NCBI GenBank assembly: GCA_030149525.1
Contig: JASBRJ010000031.1
Coordinates: 1-55,566 of the forward strand
Origin: a bacterium
Lineage (GTDB): Bacteria; Vulcanimicrobiota; Xenobia; Xenobiales; JADMJV01
Length of the DNA stretch: 55,566 bases
Reading direction: 5' to 3'
Shown in pieces: positions 19,951 through 39,325 of this stretch. Positions within the stretch are counted from its first letter, which is position 1; every line of letters starts with the position of its first letter. The translations under genes were made by a program, and so were the position numbers. Under the pieces are notes generated by a model, which worked only from the letters and a program-made list of their open reading frames with translations, did no database searches and had not been told where the DNA came from.

Positions 19951-21161
19951 ACAAGGATCGTTGGGATATCGTGGTGGTCGGGGCCGGCGCTGCCGGGCTG
20001 TTTGCGGCGCTGCGCGCCAAAGAGCTCAGCCCTCACCTTCAAGTGTTGATCGTGGAGAAGGGGCCGAAGCCGCTCCGCAAGGTGTCCATTTCCGGTGGCG
20101 GCCGCTGTAATGTCACTCACGCCTGCCACGATCTGGATCGTTTGCTCACAAGCTACCCCCGGGGCGGCCATCGCCTGGAAGCGATTTTCGGGAGATTCAT
20201 GCCCCAGAACACCATCGACTGGTTTCAAGAACGGGGCGTCAAACTAAAGACCGAATCGGACGGGCGAATGTTTCCGGTCACCGACAGTTCTCAAACCGTT
20301 ATCGACTGTCTGCTCGGTCAAGCTCACAAGTTGGGGGTGAGTCTTGAAACCAAAGTCCGAGTGGAAAACATTGAGCCGTGCGGCTCCAACTTTCATCTTC
20401 AAGCAGGATCTCGCAAAATCATAGCCTCCAAACTACTCCTGGCCACCGGCGGCGCCTCTAAGGCCACCTCGTGGCTCAAGAGCCTGGGACACGAGGTCGT
20501 CGCAGATATCCCCTCGCTCTTTACCTTTTGTTGCAACGACCCGCTCTTGCAGGGACTCCAGGGGCTCTCGGTCGACCCGGTGGGGCTGACCCTGAAGACA
20601 GAGCCGGAATATGAAAGCACCGGTCCTTTTCTGATCACCCACTGGGGAGTCAGCGGCCCTGCCGTTCTTCGCCTGTCCGCCTTTGCCGCCCGAACACTGT
20701 TTGAGAACAATTACCGAGCGAGTCTCATCATCGACTTTCTTCCTGACATATCCGAATCGGAACTCCGACTCCAGATGGAAGGGTTGGTCTCGCCCAAACT
20801 GGTTCAGACAACAAGTCCCTTTCCGACGATCCCCAAGCGATTATGGCGGGAACTGGTCACTCGTGGCGGAGTCAAAAAAAACCAGAGTTGGCAAAGCCTG
20901 AAACCCCCTCATATTGAAAAACTCGTAATCACTCTCAAACAACTCCAAGTCGAACTGGACGGTAAGGGCGTCTTCAAAGAAGAATTTGTGACCGCGGGTG
21001 GGCTCCCACTCCACGAAGTTGATGTCTACACCATGGAGAGTCGTCGGGTTCCCGGACTTTACGTGGCGGGGGAACTACTCAACGTAGACGGCATCACCGG
21101 CGGATTCAACTTCCAAAACGCCTGGGCCACCGGCTATATAGCCGGTGAGGCCATGGCCTGA
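19947..21161 (+). CDS. HI0933/BaiN-type NAD(P)/FAD-dependent oxidoreductase
   Basis: A 404-residue flavoprotein. The Rossmann dinucleotide motif G-A-G-A-A-G-L lies near residue 12. The family hallmark S-G-G-G-R-C-N-V-T follows at about 50, T-G-G-A-S near 170, and the C-terminal FAD motif G-E-L-L-N-V-D-G-I-T-G-G-F-N near 380. Known members reduce bile-acid intermediates or oxidise aminoacetone, but most are uncharacterised. GTG 19947, overlapping the VOC stop, is the likely start. A run of eight A residues inside the gene (20876-20883) does not break the frame. Confidence 0.9.
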   Translation: MNKDRWDIVVVGAGAAGLFAALRAKELSPHLQVLIVEKGPKPLRKVSISGGGRCNVTHACHDLDRLLTSYPRGGHRLEAIFGRFMPQNTIDWFQERGVKLKTESDGRMFPVTDSSQTVIDCLLGQAHKLGVSLETKVRVENIEPCGSNFHLQAGSRKIIASKLLLATGGASKATSWLKSLGHEVVADIPSLFTFCCNDPLLQGLQGLSVDPVGLTLKTEPEYESTGPFLITHWGVSGPAVLRLSAFAARTLFENNYRASLIIDFLPDISESELRLQMEGLVSPKLVQTTSPFPTIPKRLWRELVTRGGVKKNQSWQSLKPPHIEKLVITLKQLQVELDGKGVFKEEFVTAGGLPLHEVDVYTMESRRVPGLYVAGELLNVDGITGGFNFQNAWATGYIAGEAMA

Positions 21162-21210
21162 GGAGACACCTCACAGTAAATCCCACAACAGCGTCGAACT
21201 CAAGGATTTG

Positions 21211-22569
21211 ATGAGTCAAGAGATTTCCGGTTTTCTTAAGTCCCAGAGCTCGAGCGGTCAGTATGAGTCGAGCGGTAGCTTCACGTTGGACACCCTGAGG
21301 ATGGGTCGCAAGTTGGCCGGGCACCAACTGCCGGCCCCCGGTCTCTGGCTGGTCAAACTGGTGCAAGCGGCCGTTGCTCTGGAGACCAATGAAATCAAGA
21401 TCTCTTTTGGTACGCGAGGAGTAAGCATCAGCTTTTGGAGGCACGACGAAGGTCCCACGGCCCAGGAGATCCTGGAGGAACTCTTTCGCCCCTCCCCCTC
21501 TCCTGGACGGGCTCTCAAGCATCTCGCCACCGGCTTGAGAGATTGCGTGGCTCGCGACGCCGTGCAGCTCAAATGGGAAGTGATGGATGCCGAGGAATGT
21601 CAAACGGTGACACTCACTAAAGATGCCACCACTTCTACCAGAAGTGGAAGCATCTTAAAAGATACGAGGCAGTTAAAGCTCTACCAGATTCACCTTGAAC
21701 GCCCGGCCCGACGCCCTCCTCTCAAGAAAGCTCTTCGCCAACGTGTGGTGGACATCATGCGAGAAGTTGGTGAGGAATACATGGAAGTGGTGTCTCGCTG
21801 CTGGTGCTGTCCCGTCCCCATCAACATCGACGGAATCGACCTAGAGACCGCTGTCCCACACCCGGGAATGCGTCACCTGACAGACTGTCGCGAAGTGGGC
21901 TGTGGAGTGGACAGATATCACATGGGAGATCACTGGCTGGCTTTGCGGGCGATGACCCTACCCCTCAACCTCACACCTCTACCCACGCCCTACTGGTCAA
22001 GTCTGCCAGAAGGCACCGTCACGGTCATGACCACACCCACCAAGCCGAAAGAGACCTTTCTCACCTGGCCCGTCTCTTCAGCCGCCCCCAACGCCCTGCT
22101 GCTGGTCAGCTTTGCCAGCCTCGCCATCCCCGGCGTGGACTTCATTCTCGACGGTGCCGTGGTCGATCAGTATGAAGTCCCCTATGACCGCCCTCTGGGT
22201 GCCTCGGAACGATTACTCCCCACCTATCAACGCCAGGCCACCGGCTACCGCTATTTCGCCTGTGTGGAACCGGAACAACTCGATCTTTCCGGCTTTTCCG
22301 TACGCCACAAAGAGGCCCTGGGCAGAGAGATTTTAGGAGCAGGTAAGCCCCAGTTGGAGGAGACTCTGGATTACCTCTCCCGTCATCTTGAGCACTATCG
22401 GTTTGCCCCTTCCCCCACGGAGAAGAACGGCCGCTGGTTCAATCGCTTGTTGGCTCCACTGGCCAGGCTCAATCAGGGCTTCACTGTGGGGGAGGCTCGG
22501 CGTACTCTGGGTCAATTGCAGGCCCATCTTTCCCAGGCCGGAAAGACACAGAGTGCCGAAGCCCGCTAA
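21211..22569 (+). CDS. Family P protein 1 (P1): unknown, one of four paralogs
   Basis: A 452-residue protein of a family I cannot name. Shared blocks: E-S-S-G-S-F-T-L-D near 20-28, then a helix L-V-K-L-V-Q-A-A-V; a central C-P-V-P-I-N-I-D-G strand near 205; and a late segment D-G-A-V-V-D-Q-Y-E ... L-D-L-S-G-F-S-V. The last 90 residues are a helical tail not shared in detail. No signal peptide or catalytic motif. The fold could be a degenerate GHKL/HSP90-like ATPase (a helix rich in small residues followed by strands), but this is a weak inference. Start ATG 21211 is chosen by alignment to the paralogs and AAGGA upstream; a GTG at 21145 is possible. The methyltransferase start overlaps its end. 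Confidence 0.65.
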   Translation: MSQEISGFLKSQSSSGQYESSGSFTLDTLRMGRKLAGHQLPAPGLWLVKLVQAAVALETNEIKISFGTRGVSISFWRHDEGPTAQEILEELFRPSPSPGRALKHLATGLRDCVARDAVQLKWEVMDAEECQTVTLTKDATTSTRSGSILKDTRQLKLYQIHLERPARRPPLKKALRQRVVDIMREVGEEYMEVVSRCWCCPVPINIDGIDLETAVPHPGMRHLTDCREVGCGVDRYHMGDHWLALRAMTLPLNLTPLPTPYWSSLPEGTVTVMTTPTKPKETFLTWPVSSAAPNALLLVSFASLAIPGVDFILDGAVVDQYEVPYDRPLGASERLLPTYQRQATGYRYFACVEPEQLDLSGFSVRHKEALGREILGAGKPQLEETLDYLSRHLEHYRFAPSPTEKNGRWFNRLLAPLARLNQGFTVGEARRTLGQLQAHLSQAGKTQSAEAR

Positions 22570-30247: not shown

Positions 30248-30392
30248 CGCCTGAATTTTCGGCCTTCTTTCCTTTGAACTTCTTTGGCGCAATTCGCTCT
30301 CTGTGACTGCCCCGACACAAGCCCAAAAACGTTCGCTCACGAAGGTACTTCGAAAAAAATCCCCGTCACCCTGGGAAGAAGCGGCTCAATAC

Positions 30393-30426
30393 AAAAAAAG
30401 AGACTACCAGGAGTGTAGTCTCTTTT
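30393..30426 (-). terminator. Terminator after the Met/Gly-rich peptide gene
   Basis: Read on the minus strand: a 12-pair stem between 30415-30426 and 30396-30407, loop of seven bases, followed by a T run (complement of A at 30393-30399). It lies just downstream of the stop at 30450. Confidence 0.88.
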
Positions 30427-30449
30427 CTGAGAGAAGTATATGGAGAGGT

Positions 30450-30737
30450 TTAGAAGCCGAAGCCCCGCACGCCTTGACCGACATTGATGTTGATTCCACC
30501 GGCTCCTTGACCAGGTCGCCCTCCGCCGCAGCAGGGGCATCCACCAGGATGTCCACCGGGTTGACCGGCTCCGCCGCCCATCATCTGCTGCATCATGCGC
30601 ATCATCATCTTCATCATCTTGAACATCATTCGACGAGGTCCGCGGGGCCCTCGAGGTCCGCCGAACCGACCAGGTCCACCAAATTGGCCTGCCCCGCCCA
30701 ACTGTCCGTTCTGTCCGTAGTTGATGTTCACATTCAT
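30450..30737 (-). CDS. Met/Gly-rich small protein with CPCC motif
   Basis: A 95-residue protein of unusual make-up. N-terminal M-N-V-N-I-N-Y-G; then G-G-P/G-P-R repeats (12-36); then an Arg/Lys/Met/Gln stretch (about 35-53) with 11 Met in 19 residues, able to form an amphipathic helix; then a Gly/Pro-rich segment with G-C-P-C-C-G-G; and an end with G-I-N-I-N-V-G-Q-G that echoes the start. AAGGAGA lies 8 bases before the ATG, and a strong terminator follows, so expression is likely. Met and Cys could bind copper or zinc; this is inference only. Confidence 0.75.
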   Translation of the reverse strand: MNVNINYGQNGQLGGAGQFGGPGRFGGPRGPRGPRRMMFKMMKMMMRMMQQMMGGGAGQPGGHPGGCPCCGGGRPGQGAGGININVGQGVRGFGF

Positions 30738-30862
30738 ATTGTTGTCTCCTTAGGGTTCGATGTCTTGTCCTTATTGTGCATCACGTTCAACGGTCTGGAG
30801 GGCGCCAAATGTAACCATTGAGTTACAAATGTTTCAAATTTGCAAAACCGGCGTTCACAACG

Positions 30863-30870
30863 GTTAACAT
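30863..30870. promoter_or_regulatory. GTTAACAT site in the divergent region before the YbjQ-like gene
   Basis: GTTAACAT at 30863-30870 in the intergenic region between the divergent genes at 30737 and 30932, in an AT-rich area with TTCACA at 30854-30859. The site could serve either gene. It matches the palindrome seen before other genes here. Confidence 0.3.
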
Positions 30871-30931: not shown

Positions 30932-32119
30932 TTGATTCTTCCTTTCAGGTCGAGGGAGGTGGAAGGCGTTGCCAAAGCCCTTGGAATGTCCATCGTAACT
31001 GGTCTTTCCGGCAATGAAATCTACTGCATCCATCAGTTGGAGATGACCCCGGGCGATCTTGTCATCGGCAATAGCGTCTTTTCCATGGGATTCTTAGGCT
31101 CTATAGCGTCCGCTGCACGCACCCTGGCCGGCGGTGAGGTCACTCAAGTGACTCGAGTCATCCACGACGGTCGAAAACTGGCTTTGGACCGACTTCTCCA
31201 GGAAACGAAGCAGCGAGGCGGCACGGCTGTTACCGGTGTCACGAGCGAACTCCTTTGGCACGGAGGAGGCGTCGAGTTTTTGAGTGTGGGATCGTCGCTC
31301 AAACACCAATCCGGCGAGCTGGGAGAGTTCTCCACCTCATCGGGAGGACAGGAGCTGTTCTGTCAACTGGACTCCGGATTCAAGCCGCTTCACTTTGCCT
31401 TCGGCAACGTGGCCTACTCCATCGGCATCACCGGGGGATTGGGTGGATTCTTTCAGTCCCTTGCCCGGGGCGAAGTCACCCAATATTCCGAGGTCTTTAA
31501 CAAAACGCGCCACCTAGCTTTGGAGAGAATCGAAGAGGACGCAAAAAGCTACGGTGCAAACGCCGTCGTCGGTATTCGCACCTCGATTCTTCCACTCATG
31601 GGGACCACGGAAATGCTCATGATCGGTACCGCTTCACATCATCCGGCCTTGGGACCTCAGTTCAGCGAACGACCGATCACCAGCCACCTTACGTGCCAGG
31701 AGATGTGGAATCTCATTCACCTGGGCTATATGCCCGTTCGTCTGGTCCTGGGCGTGTCCGTCTACAGCCTCGGTTTCACCGGTGGCATTACGGCGGCTCT
31801 CCGCGGCTTCATACGAGGGGAAATCACCGAATTGACAACGCTCATCTATGATGCCAGGGAAAACGCCATTCTCCAGATAGCCAAGGAGGCCGATGCTTGC
31901 GGAGCCGACGAAGTGGTAGGAATCAAAACCTTCATCTCCCAGCTGGGCGGCAATATGATTGAGTTTATGGCGGTGGGAACGGCGGTCAAGAAAATGGACG
32001 GCATCGGAACCAAGAGTGAACAGCTACCACCTCAGGCGCTGGTCAAGGATGAGGACACCGTCATCAAGCCTTCGCGAGTCGCCGGCTATTCCGCGAAGAA
32101 TCTGAATACGGGCTCCTAG
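30932..32119 (+). CDS. Triple YbjQ/UPF0145 (DUF74) domain protein
   Basis: A 395-residue protein with three tandem copies of the YbjQ-type domain (about 105 residues each), roughly 20-130, 150-245 and 255-350. Each has S-M/I/L-G-x-x-G, R/G-G-E-V/I-T, A-L/I-L-x-x-x-x-E and A-V/D-V-G motifs. Single-domain YbjQ forms pentamers, is called heavy-metal-binding, and has unknown function; a three-domain fusion is unusual. The 45-residue tail is polar. The start is uncertain: TTG 30932, GTG 30959 and ATG 30986 are all open, none with a strong ribosome site. No signal peptide. Confidence 0.75.
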   Translation: MILPFRSREVEGVAKALGMSIVTGLSGNEIYCIHQLEMTPGDLVIGNSVFSMGFLGSIASAARTLAGGEVTQVTRVIHDGRKLALDRLLQETKQRGGTAVTGVTSELLWHGGGVEFLSVGSSLKHQSGELGEFSTSSGGQELFCQLDSGFKPLHFAFGNVAYSIGITGGLGGFFQSLARGEVTQYSEVFNKTRHLALERIEEDAKSYGANAVVGIRTSILPLMGTTEMLMIGTASHHPALGPQFSERPITSHLTCQEMWNLIHLGYMPVRLVLGVSVYSLGFTGGITAALRGFIRGEITELTTLIYDARENAILQIAKEADACGADEVVGIKTFISQLGGNMIEFMAVGTAVKKMDGIGTKSEQLPPQALVKDEDTVIKPSRVAGYSAKNLNTGS

Positions 32120-32135: not shown

Positions 32136-32957
32136 CTAGAGCATCCATAGAACTTCCCTCTTCAGCCGATTGGTGAAGTCCAGATAGTTCTGGTCGTGAA
32201 CAACCTGAAAGCCCGACAGGTCCGTGTGGAGTCCGAGAGCCTCAACGCTTGCGATCAGGCTGAGTCCGGGTCTCTCCAGTGTGTTCCGCTCTTCCTTGAT
32301 GAGAACTCCATGATGAACCCAACGAGCCTGAGACCAGGATTTCCCACTGGTGAAAGCCACCGCAGCCAAATGATCGCCCTGTGAGAGCTGGGTGATGCGG
32401 AACTCATCTTGGGCCATCCGTTCTGTGTCGGCGTCGAAGCTCAGCTGTGAAGTTGAGTCGCTATGGTAGAGTTGATATTTGCGGGCAAAGGGGAGGGCTC
32501 TCCGATTGACAAGAGAGTCGTTGAGCTGTACCGGAATCGGGCTGAAAGCGAGCACCGATCTGAGCATAGAGCGAAAATTGGCCGAGTCGCGATATCGCCT
32601 CCACACCGATCCAGTCCACTTCAACTGGAAAAGACTCAATTGCGGATCCCAAACGGCGCATCCAAACCACTCCAGATTCAGCCAGCCTAACAAAAAGCGG
32701 TCATGCCTTGCCAGCTCAGACAGCTCGGCCGTCACGCCTTCAGCTCGAATTTCCACCTTCTGCCGGTCAACTCGAAAACTCAGACCTTGAGGCTGAGCCT
32801 GATGGAATCCCTGTAGGAGAGAAATCCAGGCCTGCCAGGGATCGGTCAGCGCCCGCTCCGAGAGCAGCTTGCGTGCCCTATCTGCGGCAAGTGTGAAAGA
32901 CCCCTCGCCCTGAGAGTCGGAGCTACCTAGAGATTTTAGAAAGTCTTCAAGCCTCAA
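32136..32957 (-). CDS. Family P protein 2 (P2): short paralog
   Basis: A 273-residue member of the family also seen at 21211, 38117 and 53228. It has S-Q-G-E-G-S-F-T-L-A near 15-23, F-S-P-I-P-V-Q-L-N-D near 140 and H-G-V-L-I-K-E-E ... T-D-L-S-G-F-Q-V near 216-256. It lacks about 130 to 180 residues found in the others between and after these blocks. TTG 32957 aligns with the starts of the paralogs; the frame is open upstream into the antisense of the gene at 33075, but that part has no family match. Soluble, function unknown. Confidence 0.6.
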   Translation of the reverse strand: MRLEDFLKSLGSSDSQGEGSFTLAADRARKLLSERALTDPWQAWISLLQGFHQAQPQGLSFRVDRQKVEIRAEGVTAELSELARHDRFLLGWLNLEWFGCAVWDPQLSLFQLKWTGSVWRRYRDSANFRSMLRSVLAFSPIPVQLNDSLVNRRALPFARKYQLYHSDSTSQLSFDADTERMAQDEFRITQLSQGDHLAAVAFTSGKSWSQARWVHHGVLIKEERNTLERPGLSLIASVEALGLHTDLSGFQVVHDQNYLDFTNRLKREVLWML

Positions 32958-33074
32958 CGAACGGGCGCTTCGCTTCCTCTCGCCGACACCCTGGTCGACT
33001 CGAAATGAACAAAACGTGTCTAAGATGTAAATCTTTATGAGTTTTTTCAGACCGAACCGATACGTTAAGCTTAA

Positions 33075-33755
33075 GTGAACCTCGCCCAGATCAAAAATAC
33101 CACTCAGGATCCCAGGATTCAGCAGTTGCTGAGTCAGGCGGATGCCTGTCGTTCGAAGCACAAAGATCATGATGCGGTCAAACTTGAAGCCGAGGCGGAA
33201 GCGCTCTTTGCGGCAACCGAGCAGGTGTCTATCTCCATTCCTCGAGACCACCTGAAGGACCTCAAGCCGCTTCAAGCGATGAAAGCCCTCTTCACCGTCA
33301 AGAACGGGGCCACCAGGAAACCGATTCAAATCTTTGCCAGACAGGGCATCAAACCGGACACCGAAGAACAGGCCACAAGCCGGGAGATGGAAGCCGCCGA
33401 GAAGCGCCGATGGCAGGGACCTGAACGCTCCCGCGTGGTAGCCATGCTTGCCGCTCTCCCCCATTTCAATCCGATACTCCACCTCAACAAAGGTTCCAAC
33501 TCCGGAAATTCCAACAGCGAGGTCACCCAATTCGGCCTGGCCACTGCCGGTGCCGGGCTGATGGCCGTGGAACCGGCAGCAGGTGGAATTCTGCTGATGT
33601 TCAGTTGTGTTTTTCAAGCGGCAGCTTCGGAGGACGTCGACGAAGCGGAGGAGAGCGAATCGTCCAAAGACCCGGAGCAGGTCGAACAGAGCAAAGAGTC
33701 AGGGCTGTTTTTGGCGGACTCTGCTTCCCTCAAGTGGCTCATCAGCGACGCCTAA
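33075..33755 (+). CDS. Hypothetical protein with a short hydrophobic segment
   Basis: A 226-residue protein. Residues 1-125 are charged and helical. A Gly/Ala/Met hydrophobic stretch of about 27 residues (about 155-182) is the only possible membrane segment and resembles the zipper blocks at 939 and 24096 only in composition. An acidic Ser/Glu-rich tail follows. GTG 33075 lies close behind GTTAAGC (33064-33070) with no ribosome site, so a leaderless start is possible. Unrecognised. Confidence 0.55.
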   Translation: MNLAQIKNTTQDPRIQQLLSQADACRSKHKDHDAVKLEAEAEALFAATEQVSISIPRDHLKDLKPLQAMKALFTVKNGATRKPIQIFARQGIKPDTEEQATSREMEAAEKRRWQGPERSRVVAMLAALPHFNPILHLNKGSNSGNSNSEVTQFGLATAGAGLMAVEPAAGGILLMFSCVFQAAASEDVDEAEESESSKDPEQVEQSKESGLFLADSASLKWLISDA

Positions 33756-38054: not shown

Positions 38055-38116
38055 AATTGTTGCCGCCCGGTCAGACAGAGCAGGGAACTTCCAAACTTGG
38101 TCCCAAAACCTGCTCG

Positions 38117-39325
38117 GTGTCACTTGAGGCGTTTCTGCAAAAAAAGCGAAGCCAGGGCGGCCTCGATTCGAAGGGTCGCTTCACCCTGGATCTCGGCCGA
38201 GCCTCAGAACTGCTTTCGGCCCTTTCTCAGACAGATGATTATCACTGTTTTCTGAAGTTGGTCCAACTGGCCCATCGTCTGGGGGCCGACACCTGTTCCT
38301 TTCGAGTCGGAGTGGGCCAAATGTCTTGCAGTTTCGAGGCGCCTCCCCGAGAGGAATTCGAAGATTGGGGAGCCGTTCTTGAGGGGGTCACCTCCTACTA
38401 CGAAAGTCCACCGTCGCCCGCCTTGAGAGATCTGAGAGCGGCTCTTTTGGGAGGGACGCGCTTAGGGCCGTTGGTGAGTTGGAAAAGACAATCGAACCGT
38501 TCGGTCAACATCCTTGAGATCGAGTCATCAGGCCGCGTTCACACGCGAACGGACTCGCGCAGGGAGGAGGACAGGGAAACGGTGCTCTGGACCTACACGG
38601 TGAAGCTTTCTTCTCCCTGGCGGTTCTGGGAAATGGGTTCAAGGCTCGAAAAGCTCAAGAATCTTTTGGGGGGGAAGTGCCTCTTTAGCGCCGTTCTTCT
38701 CACCGTGAACGGCGACGAGATCCCAAGAGCGGACCTGTTTATCTTAAACTCCCATCTTCGAGAGTTCCATTCCACTCAGTTCAATGCAGCCATCGGAGCG
38801 ATGCAAAACCTCAAAAGTAAGGTGGCCCCATCGTGCATCGTGCTTCATCCTTGCCGCAAGGGGTTCGGCATCATAGGTCCCGACCCGAAGCTGTATAGCC
38901 GCCATCGAGAGGTCTACCTGTGGACTCAGGGCCTTCAACAGAACAATACCTACCGTCCCGATACCAGTGAAGCTCCAGCCTGGATGTTTCTATTGGAGGG
39001 TGAGGTCCGCCCACCTCAACAACCGTTGGTATGCGACGCTGTGGTGGCCTTGAATATCCACGGCCCAGGGAATCAGGATCGTCTTAGAATCAAAGTGGTG
39101 AGAGGTGGAGTTTTGATCCTGGAAGCCCAAATTCTCGATGACAATTTCGAAGCTTTTCGAGGGTGCAGTGTCCTTCTCGACGACGATGAGTTAACGACCG
39201 ATCTTTCCGGTCTCAAACTGGTGGAGAGCGAAGAACTGCTCAACAAATTGAACCACCTAAAAGACCTGGTGGACAAAGGTCACGAACATTTCGGAGTGGG
39301 CGAACACTACCTCCATTGGGCGTAG
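38117..39325 (+). CDS. Family P protein 3 (P3)
   Basis: A 402-residue member of the four-paralog family. It has L-D-S-K-G-R-F-T-L-D near 16-25, L-L-T-V-N-G-D-E near 196, and R-G-G-V-L-I-L-E ... T-D-L-S-G-L-K-L near 330-375. There is no signal peptide or membrane helix. GTG 38117 is chosen since V-S-L-E-A-F-L-Q matches the start of the paralogs; TTG 38057 would add 20 residues. It stands before a creatininase-like gene, 44 bases away, on the same strand. Confidence 0.6.
   Translation: MSLEAFLQKKRSQGGLDSKGRFTLDLGRASELLSALSQTDDYHCFLKLVQLAHRLGADTCSFRVGVGQMSCSFEAPPREEFEDWGAVLEGVTSYYESPPSPALRDLRAALLGGTRLGPLVSWKRQSNRSVNILEIESSGRVHTRTDSRREEDRETVLWTYTVKLSSPWRFWEMGSRLEKLKNLLGGKCLFSAVLLTVNGDEIPRADLFILNSHLREFHSTQFNAAIGAMQNLKSKVAPSCIVLHPCRKGFGIIGPDPKLYSRHREVYLWTQGLQQNNTYRPDTSEAPAWMFLLEGEVRPPQQPLVCDAVVALNIHGPGNQDRLRIKVVRGGVLILEAQILDDNFEAFRGCSVLLDDDELTTDLSGLKLVESEELLNKLNHLKDLVDKGHEHFGVGEHYLHWA

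Follow-up and report, generated by a model that had tools for sequence, protein, structure and literature searches.

Harpins are small, Gly-rich proteins that have no Sec signal and carry an amphipathic helix, and Met-rich copper- and silver-binding proteins combine M-x(2-3)-M spacings with nearby His or Cys residues. The Met-helix proteins described here resemble both groups in part. They are like harpins (XopA/Hpa1, NF041543) in size, Gly content, leaderlessness and helix but differ in having Cys-rich members, in lacking any injectisome that we could find and in their scores against NF041543, for which one of five members matched, at 19.2 bits where the cut-off is 100 bits. With Met-rich copper/silver-binding proteins, they share the M-x(2-3)-M spacings and the nearby His/Cys, but they have no export signal, and the helix is conserved instead of Cys and His. 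Eukaryotic Met-rich low-complexity redox sensors, as far as portrayed in the available part of the source, likewise have a Met-rich disordered chain, whereas Met lies here in a predicted ordered helix.

A DNA repeat found upstream of these genes, hereafter the box, is comparable to the PhoP/WalR (YycF) sites of Bacillota, which are likewise 17-bp direct repeats with an 11-bp period; this 17-bp repeat is seen at the family level, while the gene studied here reaches only 9 of 12 positions. PHO boxes are given as two 11-nt direct repeats in the available text of PMC4415409. The reverse complement of the box, TGTWAA-N5-TGTWAA, resembles the Staphylococcus aureus WalR motif, TGTHH-N6-WGTNDD in the available text of PMC10746227. 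Wall hydrolases occur in the WalR regulon and in the box gene set alike. In contrast to PhoP/WalR, the regulator of the box is putative, many targets are low-complexity leaderless proteins and the phylum is a different one. Of the phylum studied here, a cultivated member was first described in 2022 (available text of PMC9758169).

A small gene with relatives in a sister genus

The window, that is, the whole 55,566-nt stretch of DNA analyzed, belongs to a genome of 8.27 Mb (398 contigs, 97% complete). The gene of interest is encoded on the minus strand, from 30737 to 30450, a strand that the original prediction left unstated; the plus-strand frame over the same bases does not encode it. Every feature listed in the original prediction is present in this 95-aa ORF (Table 1): the 11-Met helix stretch, with all 11 Met within 17 residues (37–53), the G-P-R repeats as a G-P-R-G-P-R-G-P-R run, the C-P-C-C motif and the N-I-N-like ends.

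Table 1 Features of the window gene and its surroundings
Feature	Position	Strand	Basis or remark
CDS, 95 aa plus stop	30450..30737	(-)	Reading frame, homologues and sister-genus dN/dS
Ribosome binding site AAGGAG	30746..30751	(-)	Read in sequence, 8 nt before ATG
Met-rich amphipathic helix, residues 35-53	30579..30635	(-)	AF2 and alignments
Seam of helix: M38, M42, M45, M49, M52	within 30579..30635	(-)	Alignments
N-terminal N-V-N-I-N, residues 2-6	30720..30734	(-)	Translation; similar in several paralogues
C-terminal I-N-I-N-V, residues 82-86	30480..30494	(-)	Echoed in C379, C223 and C388
C-P-C-C, residues 67-70	30528..30539	(-)	Translation
Intrinsic terminator hairpin with T run	30393..30427	(-)	Read by eye and fold score
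Promoter region with degenerate TTWACA-like repeats	30800..30870	(-)	Best score 9/12
Divergent neighbour with YbjQ_1 domains (three stretches)	30932..32119	(+)	Pfam; functional link not implied

The ORF is a real gene, as had been proposed, because it combines a ribosome site and a terminator with paralogues and with sister-genus copies under purifying selection. The terminator stretch (30385–30432) folds at −18.1 kcal/mol (z = −3.3), a value equaled in 0 of 200 shuffles; a pattern scanner for terminators missed this hairpin and reported another site. The same-strand ORF downstream yielded only sub-cut-off Pfam matches of the coiled-coil type. The window protein itself matched nothing in Pfam or NCBIfam at E values up to 1, and no Rfam match was found for the window as a whole.

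Using a 15-row profile, we detected nine loci at E up to 0.001 in the window genome, the window gene among them; eight of the nine are rows of the profile itself. A single-sequence search had retrieved paralogues in C379, C212 and C325 (two in tandem), with C223 at an E value of 3.0; profile searches then turned up C117 and C305 as well and upheld C223, and C388 was first met through the promoter box. A further candidate, C341, is known only via the box and was left out of every family count. C397 (single-sequence search, E 0.058) was dropped because the profile search did not return it, as were weak matches in C335, C49 and genome G024 that were not regained with the 15-row profile.

Each of five sister-genus genomes searched contained two copies, and in all 20 sister-genus orthologue pairs dN/dS was 0.08–0.30, which makes purifying selection on these copies clear. 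An ortholog search, suggested as a check in the original prediction, thus returned homologues in relatives and not the lack of conservation that would have spoken against the gene. Across the phylum, matches at E up to 0.001 appeared in 8 of 149 genomes, comprising the window genome, all five sister-genus genomes, the distant G020 and, weakly, G130. The family-like protein of G020 (L111:1498-1851) has 38 Met among its 118 residues and is broken off at a contig end. Among the relatives on genome contigs, three of five loci were titled Candidatus Eremiobacterota, and the Met-rich profile gave no relatives in the genome contigs searched with it; none were found on the viral contigs or plasmids searched, and PDB sequences queried with the 15-row profile gave no match at E values up to 1. 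Our literature search found no paper with a Met-helix protein family in its title. The Met-helix proteins make up a previously undescribed bacterial family whose members are small, rich in glycine and arranged around one conserved Met-studded helix.

A conserved helix between variable tails

An AF2 model built on seven sequences predicts only helix 35–53 in the window protein and low-confidence coil elsewhere (mean pLDDT 84 over residues 41–50 and 52.5 overall). This helix is the constant part of the family. M38, M45, M49 and M52 are invariant in 15 of 15 aligned proteins and M42 is kept in at least 90%. In a block count over 19 members, Met occupies offsets 0, 4, 7, 11 and 14 in 19, 18, 19, 19 and 19 members, respectively, a 4-3-4-3 spacing along the helix face. 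Gln occupies offset 13 in 18/19 members, Gly comes next, and Leu occurs on the seam face at offsets 3 (10/19) and 10 (11/19). In the sister genus, Lys or Arg predominates at offsets 1, 2, 5, 6 and 9 and creates a basic face. The pattern would correspond to a hydrophobic face of the a/d/e type in which Met takes positions a and e. The block count was anchored with a preference for Met; MAFFT, which has no such preference, gave the same columns, with M42 variable in some rows. For C325a the block register differs from that of MAFFT, and the five positions are Met either way. C305, outside the 19-member count, has all five seam Met when its helix is inspected by eye.

The tails vary. The 19 members contain 0–11 Cys and 0–8 His each; eight window-genome members counted have 3–11 Cys, and 6 of 10 sister-genus members have none. 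Cys residues precede the helix in C223 and flank it on both sides in C379. Most own-genus members have a short N-terminus (N-I-N-I), sister-genus members a long one rich in Ala and Gly, and C-terminal ends are alike within each genus. By eye, six of the nine window-genome members begin with an N-I-N stretch (window gene, C212, C325a, C325b, C117 and C223), C379 has T-I-N-I, C305 has N-N-I-N further in and C388 has none. Motifs at both ends occur in the window gene, in C223 and loosely in C379, with C388 carrying the downstream one only; the mirrored ends noted earlier are therefore a trait of only part of the family. A simple hydropathy rule detected a Sec/TM-like start in 0 of 20 family members. 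The core that the family conserves is the helix and not the Cys motif.

These data bear unequally on the two functions first suggested for the protein. Membrane-surface or helix-driven association fits better because what is conserved is an amphipathic helix, one face of which is basic in the sister genus, while copper or heavy-metal binding is weakened by the wide range of Cys and His numbers and the shifting Cys positions. A metal site built on C-P-C-C was rejected since the Cys residues are not conserved. In a broader form, the metal hypothesis, a cytoplasmic buffer for soft metals (Cu(I)/Ag(I)) or oxidants made of the Met seam and Cys/His tails, appears doubtful. It could explain why seam positions are Met, not Leu, and draws on the Cys content of the window-genome members and on some neighbors: the YbjQ_1 domains encoded upstream of the window gene, whose Pfam name is 'putative heavy-metal-binding', an iron-dependent repressor and ABC transporter close to one paralogue, and NUDIX and thioredoxin genes divergent from another. 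However, most sister-genus members lack Cys altogether, Cys residues shift between the sides of the helix, and the neighbors differ, with no gene, metal-related or other, common to the copies whose surroundings were read (all but C388 and C305). Moreover, the 20 box-linked proteins scanned with Pfam (see below) included no metal-homeostasis family apart from a zinc carboxypeptidase. As a separate observation on gene context, a LytTR response regulator gene (L022:8900-9652) is convergent with the C212 family gene.

A direct repeat upstream of family members and many other genes

In seven family members, TTTACA/TTAACA words are abundant upstream of the gene. Arranged as an 11-bp direct repeat, TTWACA-N5-TTWACA, they form a box with 62 sites in the window genome, compared to four for a reversed control; a 10-bp spacing variant, for which the pattern also required a leading G, gave one site versus zero. 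An ORF with a ribosome site lies 60–135 nt downstream of 41/62 sites (40 distinct ORFs) versus 176/1160 random positions drawn from the fetched loci, counting ATG or GTG starts, and 21/62 sites have no well-placed ORF. Start codons fall 85–104 nt after the box at 26/62 sites versus 5.3% at random, often at about 95 nt. A −10-like hexamer 40–46 nt after the box accompanies 23 of the 41 sites, while 200 base shuffles gave a mean of 6.2 and a maximum of 13.

Each of the eight window-genome members identified by sequence scores at least 9/12 (window gene, C379 and C325a 9; C212 and C305 10; C325b, C117 and C223 12); C388 and C341, which came through the box, were kept out of these scores. Among background genes, 23/143 (16%) reach 9 or more and 1/143 reaches 12. 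Family promoters thus tend to carry the box of a large gene set, a result that is statistically strong at the family level, although the strict 12/12 form is limited to three of the eight. This suggests that the family is co-induced with dozens of further proteins, most of them without a standard export signal. The best box of the window gene itself, starting 120 nt before its ATG, is degenerate, and this gene is only weakly tied to the set since 23 of 143 background genes score as high or higher.

In five sister-genus genomes, the strict box shows a weak excess over the control (12/5, 9/3, 13/3, 6/3 and 8/1), and six sister-genus promoters scored 9–10 of 12. Elsewhere in the phylum, many but not all families have an excess, with box/control counts of 102/14 in G020, 87/13 in G026 and 66/9 in G033 compared to 62/4 in the window genome, while families f12 and f15 and one genus of f3 have next to no box sites. 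By eye, the AT-rich region upstream of the G020 family member contains no such repeat. In the distant G033, we read 22 of the 66 strict sites, located in 20 hand-picked stretches; 11 precede a well-placed frame, one of which has 10 codons and two of which share a gene. One box gene of G033 (L139) encodes another Met-run protein, outside the family profile matches.

Leaderless proteins behind the box

Many low-complexity proteins are encoded behind the box. By the hydropathy rule, only 1/40 box ORFs has a Sec/TM-like start versus 30/143 background genes (Fisher p = 0.004), and if box ORFs must have at least 120 aa, as the 143 background genes did, the count is 1/28 (p = 0.03). A Pfam run on a non-random choice of 20 box-linked proteins identified four PilZ proteins and left 10 without any match. 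Three leaderless enzymes were recognized, an M14 carboxypeptidase, an SLT-amidase protein and an M23 protein, in addition to an EF-hand protein and a weak DUF7305 match, the sole one with a TM-like start. The leaderless M23 peptidase at L049:731-1426 has a Met-rich helix of its own. The same 20 include a microviridin-like precursor (L062:3117-4043, G000 C232; Inhibitor_I10, E 7.6e-34) with several repeated T-M-K-F-P-S-D cores, whose gene is preceded by a strict box. A Pho regulon is unsupported because no phosphate uptake or phosphatase genes were recognized, either by eye behind the 62 sites or in the 20 Pfam scans.

Flagellar-type export genes

The window genome encodes two full-length export gates, which exceed the FlhA cut-off and fall short of the injectisome-gate cut-off, in two flagellar-type export gene sets (L099, G000 C27, and L100, G000 C177). 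No injectisome genes were found in this genome, and no type III secretin exceeded the cut-off there or in any of 14 control genomes. The available text of PMC10469934 contains no mention of type III secretion in the Eremiobacterota phylum. In C27, a methionine-synthase-like ORF (by eye) is situated between flhB and flhA. Many genomes have, besides full gates, FHIPEP matches that cover only the cytosolic part of the model (about 320–656), and FHIPEP matches of all kinds number 10 in the window genome and 19 in G001. When both gate loci were scanned for the box, a single site came up; it belongs to a box gene that one flhA precedes by about 2 kb.

Could the family be secreted accessory proteins of the harpin kind, used by a flagellar-type type III export system? 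The absence of Sec-like starts, the Gly-rich composition and the amphipathic helix would agree with this, as would the two gates, one of them close to a box gene, and a weak match of C223 to the XopA/Hpa1 model (E 0.0012). We nevertheless regard it as decidedly unlikely, given that the C223 score is far below the family cut-off, four other members tested had no match, both gates are of the FlhA type with no secretin above the cut-off, only one box site was found at the gate loci and Cys-rich members are unlike harpins. An injectisome effector in the strict sense was set low for the same gate and secretin results.

Precursors of ribosomal peptides, with the helix as leader and the Gly/Cys tail as modified core, are very improbable: multiple copies, Cys/Gly-rich tails, a G-G after the helix and the microviridin-like precursor behind the same box would suit them, but the 97% complete genome has no YcaO match and one marginal C39 peptidase match, Cys precedes the helix in C223 and C379 and is lacking in 6/10 sister-genus members, and C-terminal ends are alike within each genus. 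Azole peptides were rejected on the basis of zero YcaO cyclodehydratase matches in the window genome, and double-glycine peptide export was set low as the single C39 match lies exactly at the cut-off, within a 1,678-aa frame.

Proposed role of the family

The function of the family can only be inferred from its sequences. Our preferred reading, to which we assign a probability of roughly 45%, is a small helix protein, largely disordered, that assembles with itself or associates with membranes and is part of a response-regulator regulon of leaderless proteins, either exported or of the envelope. The protein would be made in the cytoplasm without a Sec signal and be disordered outside one Met-seam amphipathic helix. 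This helix would serve as the assembly element, driving association as a self-bundle, at the membrane surface or both, and the Gly/Pro/Asn/Cys-rich tails would provide a flexible, possibly disulfide-linked matrix. The box would be bound by a putative OmpR/PhoB-type (PhoP/WalR-like) response regulator. The products may act at or beyond the envelope via a non-Sec route, for which flagellar-type export is the only candidate seen; export of box-linked proteins is possible. Against this reading stands the degenerate box of the window gene, matched by 16% of background genes, and the PilZ proteins in the box set, expected inside the cell, count against export.

A wider scenario, unlikely in our view, would place the family in a regulon of leaderless exported or surface proteins that is widespread in Candidatus Eremiobacterota and perhaps served by the second flagellar-type gate. 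Its leaderless class would comprise low-complexity assembly proteins, wall hydrolases and the multi-core microviridin-like precursor, with Met-seam proteins as small structural or membrane-active members. As a defined element, the 4-3-4-3 Met seam in an otherwise disordered protein could be used, together with the box, to predict many uncharacterized leaderless proteins of the phylum. If exported, these products would constitute an undescribed non-Sec secretome that could bear on the predatory behavior which the available text of PMC9259500 suggests for Ca. Eudoremicrobiaceae, a marine family within this phylum.

Two further similarities among the encoded proteins were recorded. Three window ORFs (21145-22569, 32136-33617 and 38057-39325) and the box gene L078:3056-4426, which has no Pfam match, have a common N-terminal F-T-L region, with E values of 4e-7 between the 38057 and 32136 ORFs and 2e-17 between the 21145 ORF and L078. 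In G024, the protein at L019:1006-1932 joins a Met/Leu-rich helix to a C-terminal half that, by eye, is muramidase-like.
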